Source of the DNA: Candidatus Saccharimonadales bacterium
GTDB lineage: Bacteria; Patescibacteriota; Saccharimonadia; Saccharimonadales; DASWIF01
Assembly: GCA_036397795.1 (NCBI GenBank)
Contig: DASWIF010000015.1
Coordinates: 1-40,546, forward strand
Length of the DNA stretch: 40,546 nt
Direction of reading: 5' to 3'
Shown here: piece after piece, positions 3,530-36,293 of the stretch
Numbering within the stretch: the stretch's first letter is position 1
Layout: each line of letters starts with the position of its first letter
Translations under genes and position numbers: made by a program
The notes under the pieces: model-generated
Databases searched by the model: none
What the model was told of the DNA's origin: nothing
The model's input: only the letters and a program-made list of their open reading frames with translations

Positions 3530-4816
3530 ATGAAATTTTGGCAGCGTATTACAGTTCTATTTGCGAAAACGGTTATCATCGGCCTGCGCTTGATTGGCCG
3601 TCACGGCACCGCCTTGCCCGGCCTGGTTGCTGAGCGGCTGTATCCTGGACTGTTAAGCAAGCTGATAGGCCAGTTAGAGCAAGGTGTAGTTTTAATAACT
3701 GGCACTAACGGCAAGACCACAACTGCGAAGATTGCCCGTACTTTGCTAGAGCACCGTAACTTAAGGGTTCTCTCCAACCGTTCTGGTAGCAACTTTACCA
3801 GGGGAATTCTAGCCAGCGTTATGGAACAAGCTACATGGAGCGGGCGGCTGGAGTTTGATATCGCCGTTTTTGAAGTCGACGAAGCCTATGCTCGATTGGT
3901 CGCTCGAGAAGTCAAACCGGTCGTCATTGTCGTCTTGAATGTTATGCGGGACCAGTTAGATCGGTATGGAGAGATTGATAAAACGGCTAAGTTGATTGGC
4001 CAAGCGCTCGAGCAGTCACACGCGGCGGTACTCAACGCCAATGATCGGCCCGTGGCCGACCTCGGAACTAAACTAAATGATGATAAAAGAACAACGTATT
4101 TTGGAGTTTCACCCCAGTTACAAACACTCTTACCGTCGGACGAGGGTTTGTTGGTTGGTCCCATGAAAAGTCATCGACAGCCGTCACCAGACGTACTGCT
4201 TAGGCAGTTTGATGTAAGCGGCCAAGCCGAATTTTTGGCTGACGGGTTGTCGCACAAGACAAACTTACAATTTTCAGGTATCCATAATGCCCAGAACGCG
4301 ACCGCGGCCCTGGCATTGATAAATCATCTCTATGGCGCCATAGACCCGGGGGATATGATAGCTTTGAGCCGGGTACGACCAGCCTTTGGTCGGGGCGAGG
4401 AAGTAATCATTCATGGTGTCAAAGCCCGGCTAGCCCTAATAAAAAACCCCAGTGGCTTCAACCAAAACCTAAAAGCCTTCTGCCAGCCGAAAGTCGGCGG
4501 TGTTTTAATTATCATAAATGACCGTTACGCCGACAGCCGCGACGTGTCCTGGTTGTGGGATGTGGACTTGTCACCCCTGTCTCAGATAGCGGGCCGGATT
4601 ACGGTGAGCGGTGCCAGGGCATACGATATGGCTTTGCGGCTGCAATATGAGGGTATGTTATCGGACCCCGAGATGTCACTAAGCTCAGCTCTAAAACGGG
4701 CAATCGATGCCACACCGCTAACAAAAGAACTATTGATTCTGCCGACTTACACCGCGATGCTTGAAGCTAGAAGGCTACTATCCAAAACGGCCGAATTAGA
4801 GAAAATATGGCAGTAA
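3530..4816 (+). CDS. murT: Lipid II isoglutaminyl synthase, Mur-ligase subunit
   Basis: With GatD it amidates the D-Glu residue of lipid II, giving D-isoglutamine in the peptidoglycan stem peptide. The 428 residues show a Mur-ligase ATP-binding loop TGTNGKTTT at 57-65, the central-domain FEVDEA and NVMRDQLDRYGE motifs, and the C-terminal DUF1727 block (NPSGFNQNL, then INDRYADSRDVSWLWD) whose Asp belongs to the amidotransfer site. Oddity: the Cys4 zinc ribbon known in Gram-positive MurT is absent; only one Cys (AFCQPK) exists in the protein. Overlaps gatD by 10 bp, as expected for a stoichiometric complex. Confidence 0.92.
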   Translation: MKFWQRITVLFAKTVIIGLRLIGRHGTALPGLVAERLYPGLLSKLIGQLEQGVVLITGTNGKTTTAKIARTLLEHRNLRVLSNRSGSNFTRGILASVMEQATWSGRLEFDIAVFEVDEAYARLVAREVKPVVIVVLNVMRDQLDRYGEIDKTAKLIGQALEQSHAAVLNANDRPVADLGTKLNDDKRTTYFGVSPQLQTLLPSDEGLLVGPMKSHRQPSPDVLLRQFDVSGQAEFLADGLSHKTNLQFSGIHNAQNATAALALINHLYGAIDPGDMIALSRVRPAFGRGEEVIIHGVKARLALIKNPSGFNQNLKAFCQPKVGGVLIIINDRYADSRDVSWLWDVDLSPLSQIAGRITVSGARAYDMALRLQYEGMLSDPEMSLSSALKRAIDATPLTKELLILPTYTAMLEARRLLSKTAELEKIWQ

Positions 4817-25315: not shown

Positions 25316-25344
25316 TTGACCCATCTGTAGTTAACCTGTATGCT
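25316..25344 (+). promoter_or_regulatory. rRNA promoter
   Basis: TTGACC (25316-25321), exactly 17 bp, TATGCT (25339-25344). The start would be near 25351, about 130 bases before 16S. Confidence 0.75.
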
Positions 25345-25396: not shown

Positions 25397-25424
25397 TTAA
25401 AAGTTTGGTAGTGCAACGTCAACG
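25397..25424 (+). other. 5' arm of the 16S processing stalk
   Basis: Bases 25397-25416 are perfectly complementary over 20 bp to 27241-27260 downstream of 16S; pairing continues with one bulge. This is the RNase III-type stalk that loops out pre-16S. Confidence 0.85.
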
Positions 25425-25463
25425 TCAATTTTGACATTAGACAAACTAGTCTTAAGTCATTTC

Positions 25464-27088
<1,625 letters not shown>

Positions 27089-27240
27089 AGGGAGATGAAC
27101 CAGCCCCTCATGTGACTCTGCGAGAGCACTTGAGGTGAGCTAGGTCGATCCAAGTTGTTGCATCATTTTTGGTATACCAGTAACAACTATCAAGCGAATT
27201 TATTCGCTAAACGGATAGGTAGACCAGACCCGGCGTTGAG

Positions 27241-27260
27241 TTGCACTACCAAACTTTTAA
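27241..27260 (+). other. 3' arm of the 16S processing stalk
   Basis: Perfect 20-bp complement of 25397-25416; CGTTGAG just upstream continues the pairing with CTCAACG-like bases of the 5' arm. Confidence 0.85.
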
Positions 27261-27270
27261 AATGCGCAGC

Positions 27271-27299
27271 TTTAAGGAGGGAGATACCCCCTCCTTAAA
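27271..27299 (+). other. Strong hairpin after the 16S stalk
   Basis: TTTAAGGAGGG (27271-27281) pairs perfectly with CCCTCCTTAAA (27289-27299). No T-run follows. It could be a processing or pausing site. From here to 27552 the spacer is AT-rich with more palindromes (TCAATAAATT/AATTTATTGA near 27326-27358; an 18-bp TATATAATTAATTATATA core near 27480) and no gene. Confidence 0.6.
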
Positions 27300-27552
27300 C
27301 TTCGTGATTCTCCCCTGATTCTGTATCAATAAATTAGAAATGAATTCCAATTTATTGATTATTTTCCTACTAAGTAATGCTTGGGCAAAGTATCACCCCC
27401 TCATTCGGGATCATAAGAATTGAAATTAATTCAATTATCGTAACGATTGTTTACGGATTGAGAAATACAACATGGTTATATAATTAATTATATAGTTTTT
27501 ATATATAACAGATTAGCTCTTAAACAACATAGATATCAACATAGTTATATAA

Positions 27553-27810
27553 CTAAACAGTAATGATATCTTTTAGCGGTGAGAGCAGGAAGCCCATCAG
27601 GTTATCCAACAGGCCTGACATTAGTAAAAAGCCCACTATAATAACCAGCACCGCAGCGACCTGCATAACAAAATAAGTGGCCCCGCTGCCCATATACCGT
27701 TCAAACACATTATTGTGGCTGAACATGTTTGATACCCGGAAATTAAATTTTAGCAGGACGATTCCGACGCCAATTAATATCAAGCCGAGTAGAATGTTTG
27801 CTATTACCAT
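27553..27810 (-). CDS. Small two-helix membrane protein encoded antisense inside the rRNA spacer
   Basis: 85 residues from ATG at 27810. A longer frame back to 27897 exists, but its first 29 residues look random. Two spans: MVIANILLGLILIGVGIVLL and YFVMQVAAVLVIIVGFLLM, joined by a polar loop (FNFRVSNMFSHNNVFERYMGSG). Protein-like composition in a non-coding spacer and clean membrane topology support a real gene. It lies opposite to rRNA transcription between 16S and tRNA-Ala. Family not recognised. Confidence 0.65.
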   Translation of the reverse strand: MVIANILLGLILIGVGIVLLKFNFRVSNMFSHNNVFERYMGSGATYFVMQVAAVLVIIVGFLLMSGLLDNLMGFLLSPLKDIITV

Positions 27811-27945
27811 TAACTTAAAGATAGCAGAAACTGAGCTTGTTAATAAGAGGTATCTTAAGTAGAATAGCGGCGGTTCAAAACCGTCATGGTTGGTCAAAAC
27901 TAGGGAGCGCAGTTAGCCGTTTGGACAACCATATGGAAGAAACAC

Positions 27946-27974
27946 CTGAAAGACTTCAAAGATTCATTTATAAT
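27946..27974 (+). promoter_or_regulatory. Possible internal promoter for the spacer tRNAs
   Basis: CTGAAA (27946-27951), 17-bp spacer, perfect TATAAT (27969-27974), 33 bases before tRNA-Ala. It would let the tRNAs be made independently of 16S. Confidence 0.55.
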
Positions 27975-28007
27975 AAACTCCTGTTAGTCGGCAAGATTTT
28001 CTGACAC

Positions 28008-28084
28008 GGGGCATTAGCTCAGTTGGCTAGAGCACCTGCTTTGCAAGCAGGGGGTCGTCGGTTCGAATCCGACATGCTCCACCA
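28008..28084 (+). tRNA. tRNA-Ala(TGC)
   Basis: Acceptor GGGGCAT/ATGCTCC, D-arm AGCTCAGTTGGCTAGAGC, anticodon stem CCTGC/GCAGG with loop TTTGCAA (anticodon TGC), T-arm GGTTCGAATCC, encoded CCA. A classical 16S-23S spacer tRNA. Confidence 0.97.
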
Positions 28085-28143
28085 CGTCATAATTAACATA
28101 CGAGCTGTACGCTTTTGCTAGATTAGCTCAATCAAAAGCTAAC

Positions 28144-28171
28144 TAGCTCAGTTGGTTAGAGCGCGTCACTG
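28144..28171 (+). pseudogene. 5' fragment of tRNA-Ile, broken at the anticodon
   Basis: 28 bases identical to positions 28214-28241 of the intact tRNA-Ile, covering the D-arm and 5' anticodon strand, and ending right after the first anticodon base. The acceptor strand before it is degenerate, so it cannot fold as a tRNA. Confidence 0.85.
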
Positions 28172-28190
28172 TTCAGACCTTAATAAGTAA

Positions 28191-28295
28191 GTCAATGCCA
28201 GTTGGAGGGGCTGTAGCTCAGTTGGTTAGAGCGCGTCACTGATAATGACGAGGTCCCCGGTTCGAGTCCAGGCAGCCCCACCAACTGTTATTGAC
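28191..28295 (+). other. Extended stalk around tRNA-Ile
   Basis: GTCAAT and CAGTTGG (28191-28205) pair with CCAACTG and ATTGAC (28281-28295), with two mismatches between. The tRNA sits at the tip of this stem; the 3' arm includes the encoded CCA. Confidence 0.6.
28207..28283 (+). tRNA. tRNA-Ile(GAT)
   Basis: Acceptor GGGGCTG/CAGCCCC, D-arm AGCTCAGTTGGTTAGAGC, anticodon stem CGTCA/TGACG with loop CTGATAA (anticodon GAT), T-arm GGTTCGAGTCC, encoded CCA. Intact and flanked on both sides by broken copies of itself. Confidence 0.97.
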
Positions 28296-28330
28296 GAAAC
28301 ATGCTGTGTCGAGTCCAGCTCGACTTGAGT

Positions 28331-28434
28331 TACGAGGTCCCCAGTAAAGCTCGCTGATTTGACGGACAGTTTATCAGCTCGCTATGCTGTATCAAGCGGC
28401 AGTTTGACACTAGTTGAATCCAGGCAGCCCCATC
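28331..28434 (+). pseudogene. Split 3' fragments of tRNA-Ile
   Basis: TTACGAGGTCCCC near 28331-28344 matches the variable region, and TTGAATCCAGGCAGCCCCAT (28413-28432, then CA) matches the T-arm to CCA end with three changes. About 65 unrelated bases separate them. Together with the upstream 5' fragment they make a second, disrupted tRNA-Ile around the intact one. Confidence 0.7.
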
Positions 28435-28455
28435 ATTTCATTTTAGGAGCTCACC

Positions 28456-29379
28456 ATTCCCAGAGCCGAGTACGCTATTACCAGAGACGGATACCTAAAA
28501 GCAGTAAAGTTTGAGAACGCGGAAAAAAATAAATCATCGTTTTGGACTAAACGAAAGTTGGGCGTATTAGCCGTAGCTTTAGTTTTTGCTGCAAGCAATG
28601 CGGACGAAGTCAGCCGTTGGAGCCAATATGATTCGGACGGCCAGATCGTCTTACCGCCTGCTGGCTGCGAGATTGACGGATATCCCATGGACAACGAGCC
28701 AAAAAAGACGGCTGAAACACCGTTGATTGGCACCAAATCAGCTGCCAGACAGTTTACGGCCAGCAGTATAAACCTAGAGAAAATAGTAACCCAAGGTGTC
28801 GAGTACATGTATTCGGCGGTCGAGCACTTCACCATGGACCTATCAGGGATCGAAGTGGTCATACATGCGCCTAGCGGTGTAGAGATAGACCAAATAAAAT
28901 TTGAAGAGTCGTTTCACGCGCCGCTTTCAAACGAAATAGAATATTCACATCCGGAAGTCAATCAGCTTATAGAATGCTTCCGCCGAGATCTAATAGTGCA
29001 GAAAAAGCACGCTGGCAGCGTCTACCACGTACACATTGCACCAGCTGGGCACTGCATCAAAGGGATGCGCTTCCAGCCAATAAACCAAGTCGAGAGATGC
29101 GACGCATCTGGGGCTACCTTGCCACAGATAGAAGTAAGTTTTCTGGGGATAGATCTAGTTAAATACAACTTAATGATGTTAAGTACGCCTCAAACAAACA
29201 GGACGGCCAGCCAATCAATATCAAAAACACTTTTACACGAAACCATTCATGCCTATTTAACGCTAGAAGAAGTGCCGCTCCGTTTAGATCCGGACGAAAA
29301 GCTGGTTAAGCACGTTGAACAGGTTGTTATAAAAACTGTATATCCCGACGGCGTGCCTATAGCCATAAAATATCCTTGA
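28456..29379 (+). CDS. Secreted or membrane-anchored HExxH metallopeptidase-like protein in the rRNA operon
   Basis: Zinc motif HETIHAYL at residues 261-268, in the helix after SKTLL, with a possible third ligand in KHVEQ about 25 residues on; otherwise no family is recognised. The first ordinary start is TTG at 28558, but that cuts the signal segment. An in-frame ATT at 28456 has AGGAG six bases upstream and adds 34 residues, including basic TKRK directly before the hydrophobic stretch LGVLAVALVFAASNA, so I take ATT as start (307 residues). Cysteines in the mature part suit an exported protein. It lies between tRNA-Ile and 23S on the rRNA strand and ends before an intrinsic terminator. Substrate unknown. 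Confidence 0.7.
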   Translation: MPRAEYAITRDGYLKAVKFENAEKNKSSFWTKRKLGVLAVALVFAASNADEVSRWSQYDSDGQIVLPPAGCEIDGYPMDNEPKKTAETPLIGTKSAARQFTASSINLEKIVTQGVEYMYSAVEHFTMDLSGIEVVIHAPSGVEIDQIKFEESFHAPLSNEIEYSHPEVNQLIECFRRDLIVQKKHAGSVYHVHIAPAGHCIKGMRFQPINQVERCDASGATLPQIEVSFLGIDLVKYNLMMLSTPQTNRTASQSISKTLLHETIHAYLTLEEVPLRLDPDEKLVKHVEQVVIKTVYPDGVPIAIKYP

Positions 29380-29439
29380 ATCGACTGGTTTCGTTGTAAC
29401 ATAAACATCTTGTCGATAAAGCCCCTGGCAAACTCTTTA

Positions 29440-29590
29440 CACGCTGGTTGATAGTTGGTACCATGTTAGCCGGTCAAAAGGAGACTTAAGGCGAAGATGA
29501 ATACGACTCTAACATCGAAAGGGGCAACCCAGGCGTAGGTTAGACTGTATTTTTGACACGCTTTGGTCGCCTGAATCAGGCGACCTTTTA
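29440..29590 (+). ncRNA. Candidate structured RNA ending in an intrinsic terminator
   Basis: ATGTTAG near 29463 pairs with CTAACAT near 29509, enclosing about 40 bases. The segment ends in the strong terminator at 29565-29590. No coding frame above a dozen codons. It may be the 3' UTR of the metallopeptidase mRNA or a separate small RNA. Confidence 0.3.
29565..29590 (+). terminator. Intrinsic terminator between 16S/tRNA and 23S
   Basis: GGTCGCCTG (29565-29573) pairs perfectly with CAGGCGACC (29577-29585), loop AAT, then TTTTAAAT. Standing upstream of 23S, it should block or attenuate read-through from the 16S promoter. Confidence 0.8.
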
Positions 29591-29619
29591 AATCTCTGGC
29601 GGACATGAACTTTAACAAT

Positions 29620-29672
29620 TTAGATGGATAGAAAGGTATCTTGTAATCGGTCATACCGATTACTAGTTAACC
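29620..29672 (+). other. 5' arm of the 23S processing stalk
   Basis: 29620-29635 pairs with 36097-36112 (15 of 16), and ACTAGTTAACC (29662-29672) pairs perfectly with GGTTAACTAGT (36013-36023). Thus the precursor of 23S begins here, 420 bases before mature 23S. The span 29673-30040 holds no gene. Confidence 0.75.
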
Positions 29673-30340
29673 AATGCAATTTCCCAAATCGTTTTGCCGC
29701 GTTCGGCCTGCTTGCTGGCAGAGCCAGCAACTCTGCCGATCGCTCATGGCGCATCGCATCGTCAGATGTTTACGGTGCTCACTCTCTGTACTTTACTGTA
29801 CAGTTCGTTCGAGCTCCGCACATCTTCCTTGCGCTGCACTCATGCAAAACAATTTGGAATAGATAGATTCGTAGCGATTGGCTTGGATGTAGCACAAGGA
29901 GAATTCGAGAAGTGTACTGAGGCGTACTAACGTACTCCGAGGGAGCCTCGCAGAGTTCGACGCAGTGATACGCCAAGAGTTTTACAGTGCAACCGGCTCT
30001 GCCGGCTGGCAGGTAAAACGGCCAAACGTTACGAAAACGTAAAAAGTTACTCAAGGGCACGCGATGGATGCCTTGACATAAGACACCGATAAAGGACGTA
30101 GCAGTCTGCGATAAGCTTCGGGGAGCTGACAAGCAAGCTTTGATCCGGAGATGTCCGAATGGGGAAACCCGGCTAGGGTCATGCCTAGTCACTATGCGTT
30201 GAATATATAGGCGCATCAGAGGTAAGCGCGGGAACTGAAACATCTTAGTACCGTGAGGAAATGAAAGTAACAACGATTCCGGTAGTAGCGGCGAGCGAAC
30301 CCGGAAGAGCCCAAACCTTACTTGTTTTCAAGTTAGGTGC

Positions 30341-30427
30341 TTCACACAGGAACTTTCAAACATTTACCATTTCTCATTTGAAATCAATGAAAAATGATAA
30401 TTGTAAATTGAAAATTCTTGTGTGAGG
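30341..30427 (+). repeat. 23S insertion 1 (domain I)
   Basis: A single long AT-rich hairpin: TTCACACA pairs with TGTGTGAG, TTTCAA with TTGAAA, ATTTAC with GTAAAT. Contains the shared words CATTTACCATTT and CTCATTT. Confidence 0.75.
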
Positions 30428-30761
30428 CGCCCCTTGAATAAGGTGGCAGCCGAACACAAGTAACGGGGTTGTGAGAACCAAACGACCAGGCAGGAATACT
30501 CGAGGTTCAATCGAGTCGTCCTGCTTGCGACGAAGCACTGCTATAAGCTTCGATGGAGTTACAAATCGTATGGCTAGCAGAAGTGGCTGGAAAGCCAAGC
30601 CAAAGAGGGTGAAAGCCCCGTACGCGAAAGCCATGCGACTTTAGATTTGGTAACAGTTCGACCTTAAAACCGAACTTCTCGAGTAGGACGGGACACGTGA
30701 AACCCTGTCTGAATCTGGGAGGACCACCTTCCAAGGCTAAATATGTCTTATGATCGATAGC

Positions 30762-30797
<36 letters not shown>

Positions 30798-30849
30798 GGG
30801 AGGGGAGTGAAATAGAACCTGAAATCACGTGCCTACAAGGAGTCGGAGC

Positions 30850-30992
30850 GGGCTCTTCATTGCTGAAGAGCATATTCCATATAGCAAATAACATATAGCA
30901 AAGATTTAGCATATGACATATGACATATGTTATATCTCTGTAATATGACAATTGTAATTTGTAATATGGGCTCATCACCAGTGATGAGCCCG
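30850..30992 (+). repeat. 23S insertion 2 (helix 25, classical IVS site)
   Basis: Hairpin GCTCTTCA/TGAAGAGC, an AT-rich palindrome with CATATTCC, CATATGACATATG and ATATG repeats, then hairpin GGGCTCATCAC/GTGATGAGCCC. Flanks match E. coli 23S around 545, where intervening sequences occur in many bacteria. Confidence 0.8.
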
Positions 30993-31100
30993 TGACGGCG
31001 TGCTTTTTGTAGAACGATCCAGCGAGTTAATTTCTGTGGCGTCAGGTTAAGCGGTTAAAACCGCGGAGCCGTAGTGAAAGCGAGCCTTAATAGGGCGCAT

Positions 31101-31243
31101 TACATGAGACAATACCGAGAGTTTTTCAGTTAGGCTTTGTTACTCATAAATAAAATTTTACGAATTTACTTCGGAAAATTTTATCCTTTTTTGGAAAAAG
31201 AGCAGCGAAGCGATGAGAAAAAACCTTGGTTTTGTCTCATGTA
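31101..31243 (+). repeat. 23S insertion 3 (domain II, near E. coli 650)
   Basis: A perfect 12-bp outer stem TACATGAGACAA (31101-31112) / TTGTCTCATGTA (31232-31243) encloses about 120 nt with an inner TAAAATTTTACG/AAAATTTTATCC helix. Does not share the ATTTACC vocabulary. Confidence 0.75.
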
Positions 31244-31757
31244 GAGTCGCAGGGATTAGACCCGAAACCGGGTGACCTAACCATGGGCAGGTTGAAGCGA
31301 GCGTAACAGCTCGTGGAGGACCGCACCAGTACACCTTACAACGTGTTTGGATGACCTGTGGTTAGCGGTGAAATGCCAATCGAACCCGGAGATAGCTGGT
31401 TCTCCTCGAAATAGCTTTAGGGCTAGCGTCACGAACGTAGTTTGCGGGGGTAGAGCTCTGTTTAGGGATGGGGCGCTTACAGCGTACCCACTCTTGACAA
31501 ACTACGAATACCGCAAAAATTCATCGTGGCAGTCAGAACGGCGGGGCTAAGCTCGTCGCTCAAAAGGGAAACAGCCCAGACCACCAGCTAAGGTCCCTAA
31601 ATATATGCTCAGTGGGAAACGAGGTGGGGTTTCATAAACAGCGAGGATGTTGGCTTAGAAGCAGCCATACATTTAAAGAGTGCGTAACAGCTCACTCGTC
31701 AAGAGACCCTGCGCGGAAAATGTAACGGGGCTTAAGCATATTACCGAAGCTGTGGAA

Positions 31758-31883
31758 CCAGTGCTTTGCACTGGAACTGGCAACTGGCAACTAACAACTA
31801 TCAAGCAACTATTAATCGTTAAAAGTTAATAATTTGTTTGGTGGTTGACGGTTGTTAATTGATAGTTCCAGCGCAGCGCGCTG
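31758..31883 (+). repeat. 23S insertion 4 (helix 45, classical IVS site)
   Basis: Hairpin CCAGTGC/GCACTGG, AT-rich arms (GGCAACTAACAACTATCAA against TTGACGGTTGTTAATTGATA), then hairpin CCAGCGC/GCGCTGG. Flanks match E. coli 23S near 1170, the second classical IVS site. Confidence 0.8.
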
Positions 31884-32177
31884 GTTGGTAGAGGAGCGTT
31901 CCTCGGGCACTGAAGGTCGAGCGTGAGCAAGACTGGAGCGCGGGGAAGTGAGAATGCTGGAATGAGTAACCATATGTGGAGTGAAAATCTCCACCGCCGA
32001 AAGAGCAAGGTTTCCTGGGCGATGTTTATCAACCCAGGGTTAGTCGGTCCTAAGCCGAGGCGTGTAGCGTAGGCGATGGACAACGGGTTAATATTCCCGT
32101 ACCGGTTATATTGTTGCGTGCTAGTGACGCGGCATGGTAACCCGAGCGGTCTCATGGTTATGACCGTTTAAATGTCT

Positions 32178-32323
32178 AGCGCTTCGCACTATGTGCTTCA
32201 GCGCTTATATGTCAGATAGCAGATTCCATATTGCATAGATTTTGCATATAACAGATAACAAATGCTATATGCCAAATGCTATACGACATATGAAGCGGAG
32301 CATGGAGTGCGGAGCGTAAAGCA
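32178..32323 (+). repeat. 23S insertion 5 (domain III)
   Basis: Hairpin AGCGCTTC/GCTTCAGCGCT followed by an AT-rich palindrome (ATATGTCAGATAGCAG, TTGCATAGATTTTGCAT, ACGACATATGAAG) and a GC-rich close. Located in the variable helix 58-59 region. Confidence 0.7.
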
Positions 32324-32521
32324 TGAATAAAACTGCGCGTTAAGCGCGGAATTCGGGTGACCCAAGCTGACCAGAAAAGCTGGCAAGTTTATAGATATAG
32401 CCGTCCGTACCGAAAACCAACACAGGTGCTCAGGTCGAGTAGACCAAGGCGTACGAGCGAACCTTCGTTAAGGAACTCGGCAATACAGCGACCGTAACTT
32501 AGGGATAAGGTCTGCCCCGGC

Positions 32522-32642
32522 GCGTCTCACTGGATGAGACGCACGGTATCAAGGAACTGGTATACAGGAACAAGGAAGACTCATTTTCCATATTCCCAGA
32601 TACTGATTCCCGTATACTGTGCGCCTCTCTTGTGAGGCGCAC
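32522..32642 (+). repeat. 23S insertion 6 (helix 63)
   Basis: Hairpin GCGTCTCA/TGAGACGC, then a helix of GGTATACAGGAA against CCCGTATACTG with TTTTCCATATTCC between, then hairpin GCGCCTC/GAGGCGC. Confidence 0.75.
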
Positions 32643-32819
32643 TGGGGCCGCAGCAAAAGAGTCCAGGCGACTGTTTACCAAAAACACAGGTCTCTGCTAA
32701 CACGAAAGTGGATGTATAGGGGCTGACTCCTGCCCGGTGCCGGAAGGTTAAGGAAGCGGATGTATGTCTGCGACTGAAGCCCCGGTGAACGGCGGCGGTA
32801 ACTATAACCGTCCTAAGGT

Positions 32820-33517
32820 AGAATCGCTGCCTTAGTAAAATTGAACTATATGCTGGAAACCCCGTGGATCTGACGGTACTATGGTATATTTATTCCTTAG
32901 AATAGTATGCCAAGTGACAATCCGGTCAGTGCGGACAATCAGCAGGGAAGACTCAGTTCACAGTGGATTGTTGGGTTTGCCGATGGAGAAGGATGTTTTT
33001 CTGTCAGTATCTTCAAGAATAGAACCAGTAAATTTGGCTACCAGGTGTTTCCGGAATTCGTGATAACCCAAGGCGCCAAAAGCCAGGCTGTTCTCAAGGA
33101 CATACAATCATTTTTCGGGTGCGGGAATATTTACGAGAACAAACGTAAAGATAACCACCGCGAAAGTTTGTATCGGTACTGCGTCAGGTCTAGAAAAGAC
33201 CTGCTGGAAACAATCATCCCTTTCTTTGAAGCCAATCATTTGCGTACCGCTAAGCGATCAGATTTTAAGACGTTTAGCATGGTCGTAAGGATGGTTGAGA
33301 ACCAACAACACATGGCCAATTCCGGTCTAAATCGGATTAGGCGGCTGGCCGGTTCTATGAACCGGCAGAAGCGAAGAACTAGAGAACCCTCAGAGACTAC
33401 ACGTTCAATACGCAACATAAACCATGTAGCGTAAAGATATAGTCCGATCTCTATGGCGACATAGAGGATGCAAAACACGAGAGTGCATCGTAAAAACAAC
33501 TCTAATTAGTCTATTTG
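32820..33517 (+). other. Group I intron at 23S position 1931 (L1931)
   Basis: Upstream exon ends CCTAAGGT and downstream exon starts AGCGAAATTCC, which placed together restore the normal sequence around E. coli U1931. The internal guide GCCTTAG (32829-32835) pairs with exon CTAAGGT with the required U-G at the splice site, and the intron ends in G. The 3' core has AAGATATAGTCC (P7 region) near 33434-33446 and a CTCTATG/CATAGAG P9-like hairpin. The LAGLIDADG gene lies in a peripheral loop. The L1931 site also carries LAGLIDADG-encoding introns in Thermotoga. Confidence 0.92.
32907..33434 (+). CDS. LAGLIDADG homing endonuclease, single motif, in the L1931 intron
   Basis: 175 residues with one LAGLIDADG motif (WIVGFADGEGCFSVSI, residues 20-35), then FPEFVITQ and the LAGLIDADG_1 pattern up to ENQQHMANSGLNRIRRLA. 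A single motif implies a homodimer that cuts intron-less 23S genes near position 1931. The 3' end of the frame runs into the intron core (stop within the P7-proximal GCGTAA), a compact overlap of protein and ribozyme. ATG at 32907 chosen; no strong ribosome binding site. Confidence 0.9.
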   Translation: MPSDNPVSADNQQGRLSSQWIVGFADGEGCFSVSIFKNRTSKFGYQVFPEFVITQGAKSQAVLKDIQSFFGCGNIYENKRKDNHRESLYRYCVRSRKDLLETIIPFFEANHLRTAKRSDFKTFSMVVRMVENQQHMANSGLNRIRRLAGSMNRQKRRTREPSETTRSIRNINHVA

Positions 33518-33556
<39 letters not shown>

Positions 33557-33790
33557 TGGAGTAACGATCTGGACACTGTCTCAACGAAGGACTCGGTGAA
33601 AGTGCATTGGCGGTAAAGATGCCGTCTGTCCGCACCAGGACGAAAAGACCCCGTGGAGCTTTACTACAACTTGACATTGAGTCGGGGTGTATGTCGTGCA
33701 GCATAAGTGGGAGACTTTGAAGCGGATGCGCCAGCGTTCGTGGAGTCGACAAGTGAAATACCACTCTTCATATACTTTTACTCTTACGGG

Positions 33791-33945
33791 AGCCACAAAT
33801 TGTGGAGCAATTCTTAGGCATTTAACATTTTTCATTTTGCATATTTCATAGATTTGTCATATGACATTTGGCACATCTTTGGCATATGAAATCTGGCATA
33901 TGGTATCTGCTGGAATTTGGTCCCCAGTTTCTGGTTTCCGGACCG
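33791..33945 (+). repeat. 23S insertion 7 (helix 79 region)
   Basis: Hairpin CCACA/TGTGG, then AT-rich GGCATTTAACATTTTTCAT and CATATGACATTTGGC repeats, then a GGTCCCC...GGACC close. Shares the ATTTAACATTTTTCATTT and CATATG words with insertions 1, 2, 5 and 8. Confidence 0.75.
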
Positions 33946-34120
33946 TGTCTGGCGGGTAGTTTAACTGGGGCGGTTGCCTCCCAAAGAGTAGCGGAGGCGT
34001 TCAAAGGTTGGCTAGTCTCGGATGGAAATCGAGATGATAGTGCAAACGCATAAGCCAGCTTGACTGCGAGGGCTACAACCCAAGCAGGTACGAAAGTAGG
34101 AGTTAGTGATCCGTCGTTCC

Positions 34121-34248
34121 GTACGCTCTTCACTGCGTGAAGAGCATTTACCATTTTTCAATTTACATTTTTCATTTATGGAAAATACCGACAATGAGAA
34201 TTGAGAAACGATCAATGAAAATTACTCAGCGCGTAGCGATGAGCGTAC
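34121..34248 (+). repeat. 23S insertion 8 (domain V, helix 87-88 region)
   Basis: Outer GTACGCTC/GAGCGTAC stem, hairpin GCTCTTCA/TGAAGAGC, then ATTTACCATTTTTCAATTT and its partner CAATGAGAATTGAGAAACG. The hairpin plus ATTTACC start is nearly the same as in insertions 2 and 9, although these lie in different rRNA domains. Confidence 0.8.
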
Positions 34249-34273
34249 ATGAAAGTGGGATTGACGACGCAAT

Positions 34274-34304
<31 letters not shown>

Positions 34305-34347
34305 TATAGCGCCCAATAGTTCACATAGACGGCGCTGTTTGGCACCT

Positions 34348-35183
34348 TAAACATTGGGGTGCTGCAGGAGCAATCCTGCACCAACAATGTGGCTTATAAC
34401 GGTGAAACCCTAATACCTTTTGTGAAGTATAATAAGAGGTAAGGGCAATACCGTGGGAAGTCTAACGTCAGCACAAAACGCGATTTTAGTGGGTAGTCTT
34501 TTAGGTGATGGAACATTACGCCGGCAAGGCAATCGATTGAATGCTTTGCTCGAGGTAAATCACGCCTACAAGCAGAAAGATTATGTAGATTGGAAATATG
34601 GATATTTCCAGGACTACATACTTGCTAAACCCAAATCACGCCTCGGCAGAGGCACAAGAATCGCATATCGGTTCACAACCCGTAGTTTGCCGTTGTTTAC
34701 GGTTTACTACGAGCAGTTCTACCGAAACGGTAAGAAGATAATCCCGCTGGATTTGAAACTTGATCCGCTATCCTTGGCTGTTTGGTTTATGGATGACGGA
34801 ACCAGGATTCGCTCAGCTTATTATCTGAACACCCAGCAATTTACTTTGCCAGAACAAAAGTTCTTACAAAGTCTATTGTTGAAAAGTTTTGGCCTAGAAT
34901 CAGCTTTGAACCGAGACAAACATTACTTCAGGCTACGATTTACTATAGCTAGCTCAAGGGATTTGCATAATCTAATCGAGCCATACGTAGTAGGATCCAT
35001 GAGGTACAAGCTGAATAATGACCCCGTAACGACTGAGTCGAAAGACGAGATTCCGGTTATTTTGCCGGAATAACACGCCACCTCCTGTCATAAGAAAAGT
35101 TTAGATATGGCCTATCGGTCTAAGTTTAAGCGACAGGGAGAAGATATAGTCTACGCCATATGAAAATATGGAATTAACGACAG
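34348..35183 (+). other. Group I intron at 23S position 2500 (L2500)
   Basis: Upstream exon ends TTTGGCACCT and downstream exon starts CGATGTCGGCTC, restoring the peptidyl-transferase sequence around E. coli U2500. Internal guide GGGTGCT (34357-34363) pairs with exon GGCACCT with U-G at the splice site; the intron ends in G. The 3' core has AGAAGATATAGTC near 35139-35152 and a CCATATGAAAATATGG hairpin. Confidence 0.92.
34453..35073 (+). CDS. LAGLIDADG homing endonuclease, double motif, in the L2500 intron
   Basis: 206 residues with two LAGLIDADG motifs, ILVGSLLGDGTL (11-22) and LAVWFMDDGTR (108-118), the pattern of the LAGLIDADG_2 family (PF03161), and therefore probably acting as a monomer. 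It would cut intron-less 23S genes near position 2500. GTG start at 34453, with GAGGTAAGGG 8-17 bases upstream. It is of a different subfamily from the L1931 enzyme, so the two introns were acquired independently. Confidence 0.9.
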   Translation: MGSLTSAQNAILVGSLLGDGTLRRQGNRLNALLEVNHAYKQKDYVDWKYGYFQDYILAKPKSRLGRGTRIAYRFTTRSLPLFTVYYEQFYRNGKKIIPLDLKLDPLSLAVWFMDDGTRIRSAYYLNTQQFTLPEQKFLQSLLLKSFGLESALNRDKHYFRLRFTIASSRDLHNLIEPYVVGSMRYKLNNDPVTTESKDEIPVILPE

Positions 35184-35250
35184 CGATGTCGGCTCATCAT
35201 ATCCTGGGGGGGAAGCACCTCCCAAGGGTTCGGCTGTTCGCCGATTAAAA

Positions 35251-35292
<42 letters not shown>

Positions 35293-35474
35293 TTATATCC
35301 GGTGTGGACGCAAGGAAACTTGAGGGGAGTCTTCTCTAGTACGAGAGGACCGAGAAGAACGAACCGCTGGTGTACGGGTTGTGGTACCAACTGCATTGCC
35401 CGGTAGCTACGTTCGGACAGGATAAGCGCTGAAAGCATCTCAAGCGCGAAGCCCACCCCAAGATTAGGTTTCCC

Positions 35475-35645
35475 GCAGCTTCTCACTTGCGTGAGAAGTA
35501 TTTACCATTGACCATTTTGCAAATAGCATTAATATTTCATCTGGCATTTTTCATTGCGGTCGCAATTGTTAAAAGCTACATGATAAATAAATGTAAATTG
35601 TGAATTGTAAAATGATAATTGCTCGTCGCGTGGGCGAGGAGCTGC
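35475..35645 (+). repeat. 23S insertion 9 (helix 98 region)
   Basis: Outer GCAGCT/AGCTGC pairing, hairpin CTTCTCA/TGAGAAG, then TATTTACCATTGACCATTTTG and its partner, then hairpin GCTCGTCGC/GGGCGAGGAGC. Shares the hairpin plus ATTTACC pattern with insertions 2 and 8. Confidence 0.78.
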
Positions 35646-36012
35646 AGAGCCCCCTGAAAGACTATCAGGTTGATAGGCGCTAGGTGTAAGTGCGGTAACG
35701 CATTCAGCCGAGGCGTACTAATAGGGCCATTGACTTTTTACGGCCAGGAAATTTTGGTCGCAACACCTGCCCATGAACCAAGTTCATGGCCCGTGTTGCA
35801 TGCGATGCATTTCTTCGTTAGAAGCTTGCATGCTTCGGGCGGCAGTACTTTTGTACAGCCACCCCAGCGCTTCGCTTCTGCCTCGAACTGCATTCGCCCA
35901 AAATTCCCTGGTATAAAGCTAGGATTTTGTAGTTGGATCCCATCCAACCTCAACTCCCTGGTAACAGGTAAATTGCATAACCAGAAATTTCGCATACGTG
36001 CGAGATTCTGGA

Positions 36013-36112
36013 GGTTAACTAGTATTCGGTGTGACTAACCCGCTTTTCAAGCGGGAATAATCAACCACCAATAGCCAATAATCAATTGGCTAAGCACTTT
36101 CTATCCAACTAA
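36013..36112 (+). other. 3' arm of the 23S processing stalk and AT-rich repeat
   Basis: GGTTAACTAGT (36013-36023) and 36097-36112 pair with the 5' arms at 29620-29672. Between them hairpin CCCGCTT/AAGCGGG is followed by AATAATCAACCACCAATAGCC, whose words match the 16S V1 insertion. The 23S-5S spacer from 35741 holds no tRNA or gene. Confidence 0.7.
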
Positions 36113-36178
36113 GTGTGCATCGAGGCCTCGCTTTGAATATTGGTTATTGAATATTGATAATTCGAGCGAAGCGAAGCC

Positions 36179-36286
36179 TCGGTGCCCATAGCGGTAAGGA
36201 AACGCCCGTTCCCATCCCGAACACGGCAGCTAAGCTTACCTGCGGCGATGATACTTCTCTTTAGGGGGAAAGTAGCACGGTGCCGA
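36179..36286 (+). rRNA. rrf: 5S ribosomal RNA
   Basis: About 108 nt; helix I TCGGTGCC/GGTGCCGA, loop B/C segment CCCGTTCCCATCCCGAACACGG (positions about 36206-36227) and loop E/D with AGTAGCACGG. Followed by a terminator. Confidence 0.95.
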
Positions 36287-36293
36287 ATTATAG

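Follow-up and report, generated by a model that had tools for sequence, protein, structure and literature searches.

The ribosomal RNA locus of a Candidatus Saccharimonadales bacterium very probably consists of three adjacent transcription units, not one operon

When almost 3 kb and several genes lie between the 16S and 23S ribosomal RNA (rRNA) genes of a bacterium, do the two still belong to one operon? The question is raised by a stretch of 40,546 nucleotides (the window) from a Candidatus Saccharimonadales bacterium (GenBank assembly GCA_036397795.1, contig DASWIF010000015.1), which is one contig of a 779-kb metagenome bin of 80 contigs with a 16S copy number of one; relatives of its GyrA identify the group as Candidatus Saccharibacteria. 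The 16S, tRNA-Ala, tRNA-Ile, 23S and 5S genes all lie on one strand (Table 1), and the gap between the end of 16S (27086) and the start of 23S (30040) measures 2,953 bp. An earlier note made from the sequence of the window had described the gap accurately: besides tRNA-Ala and tRNA-Ile it contains a membrane-protein gene on the antisense strand, a putative metallopeptidase gene and a hairpin that resembles a terminator. Rfam searches of the gap and of the spacers of two relatives returned only tRNAs and low-scoring matches under the gathering scores. We find that the rRNA locus very probably represents three adjacent transcription units, ancestral in the taxonomic order, and not an operon that genes have broken up.

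In the layout that we propose, a first unit would carry 16S from its own promoter, with a boxA, a processing stem and a terminator directly past the stem; in a second, tRNA-Ala and tRNA-Ile would share a promoter separate from that of 16S, the membrane-protein gene lying in front on the opposite strand; and a third would carry 23S and 5S from a promoter at 29436-29464 through a structured leader, a boxA and a processing stem of its own. The 16S stem of the window includes a perfect 21-bp pairing of 25397-25417 with 27240-27260, co-folding gives 29 pairs, and the stem and its arm motif are kept in 63 of the 64 genomes of the order tested. Across the order the 3′ arm of this stem ends 130-237 nt past 16S, and all tRNAs and genes lie beyond it. 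For the tRNA unit, a promoter-like site corresponds to the −10 and −35 elements claimed in the earlier note.

The evidence for separate units comes from the rRNA loci of some 100 genomes in the window's order (Candidatus Saccharibacteria), in which a terminator was scored as a hairpin of at least 6 pairs and at most −7 kcal/mol followed by a U-run of at least 5 T in 6. Just past the 16S processing stem, a terminator is found in 58 of 65 linked genomes (6.3 expected) and in 16 of 17 unlinked ones (2.7 expected), with the U-run at a median of 195 nt after 16S, and a few of these hairpins may belong to the processing stem. Terminators also follow 25 of 56 sense tRNA groups (1.8 expected) and seven of nine inverted groups. 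In the same test, E. coli rrnB showed no terminator after 16S, and in other classes of Patescibacteria 23 of 30 loci have one 85-320 nt past 16S (3.0 expected). The 16S-23S interval is thus not the terminator-free interval of a single-transcript operon, given the order-wide 16S terminators; the window's own candidates (27271-27366 and 29565-29589) are weaker. The hairpin at 27325-27366 appears to be the better terminator candidate for the window's 16S unit than that at 27271-27299.

Ahead of unlinked 23S genes a clear promoter is followed by a leader hairpin, then by the boxA-like TTAACAATTTG and by a stem arm ending near ACTAGT, and linked 23S genes share this order of promoter, hairpin, boxA and stem, including those behind the shortest spacers. 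The best sigma-70-type promoter in the 270 nt ahead of boxA has a median score of 13.1 over 81 genomes, against 8.0 in shuffles (16S control, 14.1 against 7.7), and in 59 of the 81 the score equals or exceeds that of 29 of 30 shuffles. The candidate in the window, at a position conserved in relatives, scores 13.0 against 7.6 in shuffles, one of 30 of which reaches it, a score close to that of the window's 16S promoter (13.4). Between it and the processing stem lies the boxA-like CTTTAACAATTTAG, where a predicted antitermination leader would have it, and this motif is conserved in the order. The 23S stem is formed by pairings of 29618-29637 with 36094-36114, 29649-29672 with 36013-36036 and 29674-29685 with 35967-35978. 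Among 27 genomes outside the largest family, the 23S leader hairpin, which has no match in Rfam, shows double changes in 8 of 12 pairs, a result reached in 0 of 500 shuffles; for a conserved alternative pairing of the third leader element the signal is no more than suggestive, with p<0.05 in 14 of 27 sequences. Nearly all genomes of the order, those with compact 0.7-1 kb spacers included, show the elements of the split. Because 16S terminators, terminators of tRNA units and 23S promoters recur order-wide, the separation of 16S from 23S-5S as transcription units is most likely ancestral. The separate transcription of 16S and 23S that the earlier note proposed is supported by these predicted signals and by repeated unlinking nearby.

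The hairpin ahead of 23S had been described as a perfect intrinsic terminator closing the upstream unit. Its 9-bp stem (29565-29585, seven G-C pairs) is indeed perfect, but the description is overstated because the tail is merely TTTTAAATCT and a scan of the gap gives 4 terminator-like sites against 2.9 expected. Nor does it close an upstream unit, for it sits inside the 23S leader, between the promoter candidate and the boxA-like motif, and G014, a relative with an equal leader layout, has a hairpin at the equal place with a better U-tract. The statement that no 23S promoter follows the terminator holds literally, since only 25 nt separate the hairpin from boxA; the candidate lies before the hairpin, as in relatives. 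An upstream 6-mer (AGGCGA in the window, GGCGAC in G014) can pair with the 5′ arm of the terminator-like hairpin. This suggests that in the window and in G014 the hairpin before boxA may be an attenuator of 23S rRNA, though the 6-mer match is short and perhaps due to chance. About 350 bp (29686-30034) are inserted between the conserved leader arm and mature 23S, and part of this insert (29883-29980) shares 72% identity with sequence from the G032 23S leader (L049, oriented 4362-4460); it may represent a hairpin element that is mobile among rRNA loci.

One could still suppose a single operon in which boxA-dependent antitermination lets transcription that starts at the 16S promoter pass every terminator and reach 5S, and the internal promoters are additive. 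The 16S and 23S leaders both have boxA-like motifs, E. coli, with a true operon, likewise carries another boxA set ahead of 23S (PMC10250234), and most genomes keep 16S and 23S collinear. Terminators at fixed places after 16S and after the tRNA group would be pointless in such an operon, however, the spacer holds antisense tRNA pairs and genes, and the same elements are kept in unlinked genomes, and we consider this explanation improbable. Several observations nevertheless count against three units. A boxA-modified polymerase might pass some terminators, and 23S transcripts themselves would be stopped by the terminator-like hairpin of their leader unless that hairpin is weak or regulated. At the usual place of the 16S terminator the window has a hairpin without a U-tract, and the nearby hairpin with a U-tract is AT-rich. 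The comparison genomes share the window's order, and none its family. The evidence on transcription is that of sequence, which displays the elements and their conservation and from which we infer their action in vivo.

How, then, did so large a gap arise? In 66 genomes the two genes share one stretch; their spacers range from 666 to 7,000 bp (median 1,856), and 40 exceed 1,500 bp; an outlier of 273 bp without tRNAs (G292), likely a misbinned contig, was excluded from most tests. The Ile/Ala tRNA pair is inverted in nine genomes, even in spacers of 919 and 993 bp. In some spacers of the largest family, f35, a tRNA-Val(TAC) has been gained beside Ala and Ile, in varying order (L154, L165, L138 and others). 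In other genomes 23S lies 9-138 kb off, has the opposite orientation (G220) or sits on a different contig. On a 16S tree, built by a quick method and with some weak nodes, there are at least 27 changes of spacer class, at least nine unlinkings of 23S and at least nine changes in tRNA strand.

The earlier note had taken the window for a possible intermediate toward unlinked rRNA genes, with the operon broken up by genes; on such a reading the intermediate would be recent and made by gene insertion. Expanded spacers do neighbour some unlinked lineages on the tree: the unlinked G248 (26 kb) lies next to G181 (4.5-kb spacer), and the unlinked clade of g52, g87 and g155 next to G301 (4.7 kb) and g71 (3.1-3.2 kb). 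The metallopeptidase gene also resembles a lineage-specific insertion. Other unlinked genomes (G079, G071, G220), however, have neighbours with short spacers, the antisense gene is ancient, and the split layout predates the insertions, being present in 0.7-1 kb spacers without an inserted gene. A recent intermediate is therefore rather unlikely, and the window itself shows an old, possibly stable arrangement. On the three-unit reading, the ancestral division into units would leave the space between them open to insertions and tRNA inversions and, in the end, to the separation of 23S; the metallopeptidase insertion and full unlinking are best read as consequences of this layout.

The antisense open reading frame (ORF) proves to be a real gene, as had been claimed, because both G014 and G033 have a homologue at that place and on that strand. 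Against G014 the nonsynonymous divergence (dN) is 0.35 and the synonymous divergence (dS) saturated, which indicates purifying selection. A single-sequence search found the gene in only three of 393 genomes of the order, each time antisense in the spacer. A profile from these three sequences, made without use of location, matched in 53 of the 240 genomes searched across the phylum; 34 of the 40 places fetched from it are in an rRNA-locus context, and in 30 of the 40 tRNA-Ala(TGC) follows directly downstream in the same direction, the usual order being 16S, tRNA-Ile, gene, tRNA-Ala. With a larger profile, 128 of 286 sampled Patescibacteria genomes matched and 28 of 40 further places are in rRNA context, a figure that leans towards this context because the seed matches were picked by location. 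Within the order, an ORF search that covered the spacers and, where 16S is unlinked, the 6 kb following it found the gene in 28 of 83 genomes, antisense in all 28, a count inflated by relatedness; a reversed-sequence control gave no match below E 0.01.

Members of this membrane-protein family are ~70-90 amino acids long, carry the motif FG..xWAExxLGgGGTYxxxKLxG and lie beside tRNA-Ala(TGC), 16S or 23S across Patescibacteria (loci L237-L286 and L317-L356); in Saccharimonadia the gene is antisense, in other classes sense and placed between Ile and Ala. The predicted model (pLDDT, a per-residue confidence score, of 87) has two long hydrophobic helices and short amphipathic ones. Neither Pfam nor NCBIfam has a family match above its cut-off, the model found no Protein Data Bank match at E<=0.001, and the protein is nowhere reported in a literature search that most subscription journals lay outside. 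A chemistry-based or mobile-element origin of the gene was ruled out by the phylum-wide position. Judged by that position, the antisense gene is an ancient resident of the rRNA locus and not an intruder. That independent genomes repeat the adjacency of membrane-protein gene and tRNA-Ala also bears on whether assembly or binning might have joined unrelated pieces, as an 80-contig metagenome bin could suggest. Given that gyrA, the upstream neighbour of 16S, holds this place order-wide and that both processing stems pair across gap-flanking sequence, such an artefact is scarcely credible.

The metallopeptidase ORF runs to 29379; its start is TTG at 28558 or ATT at 28456, the latter with a Shine-Dalgarno sequence. 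Its naming in the earlier note holds as far as the HExxH motif, present as HETIHAYL; the Pfam SprT-like match stays under the gathering threshold (E 0.0014, 18.9 bits against a cut-off of 25.6). Distant homologues occur in two other genomes among 198 searched, neither near tRNA or rRNA, which rules out a conserved spacer gene, and a scan of the genome's contigs found none. The gene looks like a lineage-specific insertion. Partial copies of tRNA-Ile lie on both sides of tRNA-Ile, just ahead of the metallopeptidase gene, and may mark integration or tandem duplication.

Table 1. Features of the rRNA locus, in positions of the window
Feature	Position	Strand	Remarks
16S promoter-like site TTGACC-N17-TATGCT	25316-25344	+	score 13.4; reached by 0/30 shuffles
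16S processing stem, 5′ arm	25397-25426	+	begins with boxA-like TTAAAAGTTTG
16S rRNA	25484-27086	+	sole copy in the genome
16S processing stem, 3′ arm	27232-27260	+	
Hairpin without U-tract	27271-27299	+	at conserved 16S-terminator position; −15.6 kcal/mol
AT-rich hairpin, then TTATTTTC	27325-27366	+	−8.9 kcal/mol
Small membrane protein	27553-27807	−	84 amino acids; two long hydrophobic helices; gene divergent from tRNA-Ala; may start upstream, at TTG 27897
tRNA promoter-like site CTGAAA-N17-TATAAT	27946-27974	+	10/12 matches
tRNA-Ala(TGC)	28008-28084	+	
Pseudo-tRNA fragment	28144-28171	+	exact copy of tRNA-Ile positions 8-35
tRNA-Ile(GAT)	28207-28283	+	
Fragment of tRNA-Ile 3′ end	28416-28435	+	18/20
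Putative zinc metallopeptidase	28456-29379	+	HExxH; apparent lineage-specific cargo
23S promoter candidate TTTACA-N17-TACCAT	29436-29464	+	score 13.0; TG extension (extended −10, TGgTACCAT)
Structured 23S leader	29466-29600	+	z −3.9
Terminator-like hairpin in 23S leader	29565-29589	+	stem 29565-29585
boxA-like motif CTTTAACAATTTAG	29610-29623	+	between promoter and processing stem
23S processing stem, 5′ arm	29618-29685	+	pairs with 35967-36114
23S rRNA	30040-35742	+	intron-like inserts
23S processing stem, 3′ arm	35967-36114	+	
5S rRNA	36178-36288	+	

The rRNA genes themselves carry inserts. Two LAGLIDADG endonuclease ORFs lie inside 23S (32907-33434, PF00961, E 7e-26; 34453-35073, PF03161, E 8e-42), which implies the presence of two introns. 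AT-rich hairpin-like inserts occur in variable regions of both 16S and 23S (25588-25680, 30345-30425, 30870-30970, 31770-31870, 32190-32320 and 33800-33900), some of which look mutually related.

Separate 16S and 23S-5S units are found in Thermus and Helicobacter. Buchnera and Wolbachia likewise transcribe 16S and 23S-5S independently (PMC7761764, PMC8172020), as we read from sequence here. In all four the genes are far apart, whereas here the units are adjacent, separated by a short tRNA unit and a protein gene resident in the locus. The locus resembles the E. coli-type rrn operon (PMC10250234) in its Ile and Ala tRNAs, its leader-trailer helices and a boxA before both 16S and 23S; E. coli rrnB is one transcript, whereas each part here has its own predicted promoter and terminator. 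Unlinked rRNA genes were described by Brewer et al. 2020 (as cited in PMC8172020 and PMC7761764), and Lui et al. 2021 (PMC8172020) give cases from the Candidate Phyla Radiation (CPR), where they are common; the latter classed their two Saccharimonadial genomes as operonic. At 2,953 bp the gap in the window exceeds the 1,500-bp spacer taken to mark unlinked genes (PMC7761764), and with more than 2,000 bp and an opposite-strand gene between (conserved 27553-27807) the locus corresponds to type D of Lui et al., a class defined by the inability of a single promoter to serve both genes. Such studies class loci by distance and gene strand, whereas here promoters and terminators suggest a split even below 1 kb. 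The papers that we found on unlinked CPR rRNA genes are distance-based and offer no mechanism, and our literature search, which most subscription journals lay outside, gave no report of split units with adjacent genes in Saccharibacteria.

Across Patescibacteria the rRNA locus is probably no operon in general: it would have its own 16S terminator past the stem, its own 23S promoter and the membrane protein beside tRNA-Ala(TGC) as an ancestral resident, a split that permits the genes to drift apart frequently. Such a pre-existing split could explain why rRNA genes are so often scattered in these bacteria. If it is true, unlinking would be a neutral later step, since adjacent 16S and 23S genes already have separate promoters and terminators, and the balance of 16S and 23S must stem from matched promoters and not from one transcript. 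Distance-based 'operonic' calls and long amplicon designs spanning 16S, internal transcribed spacer and 23S would then be misleading for these bacteria. The locus-bound membrane protein would offer a new, widely conserved study target in a phylum rich in unknown genes.

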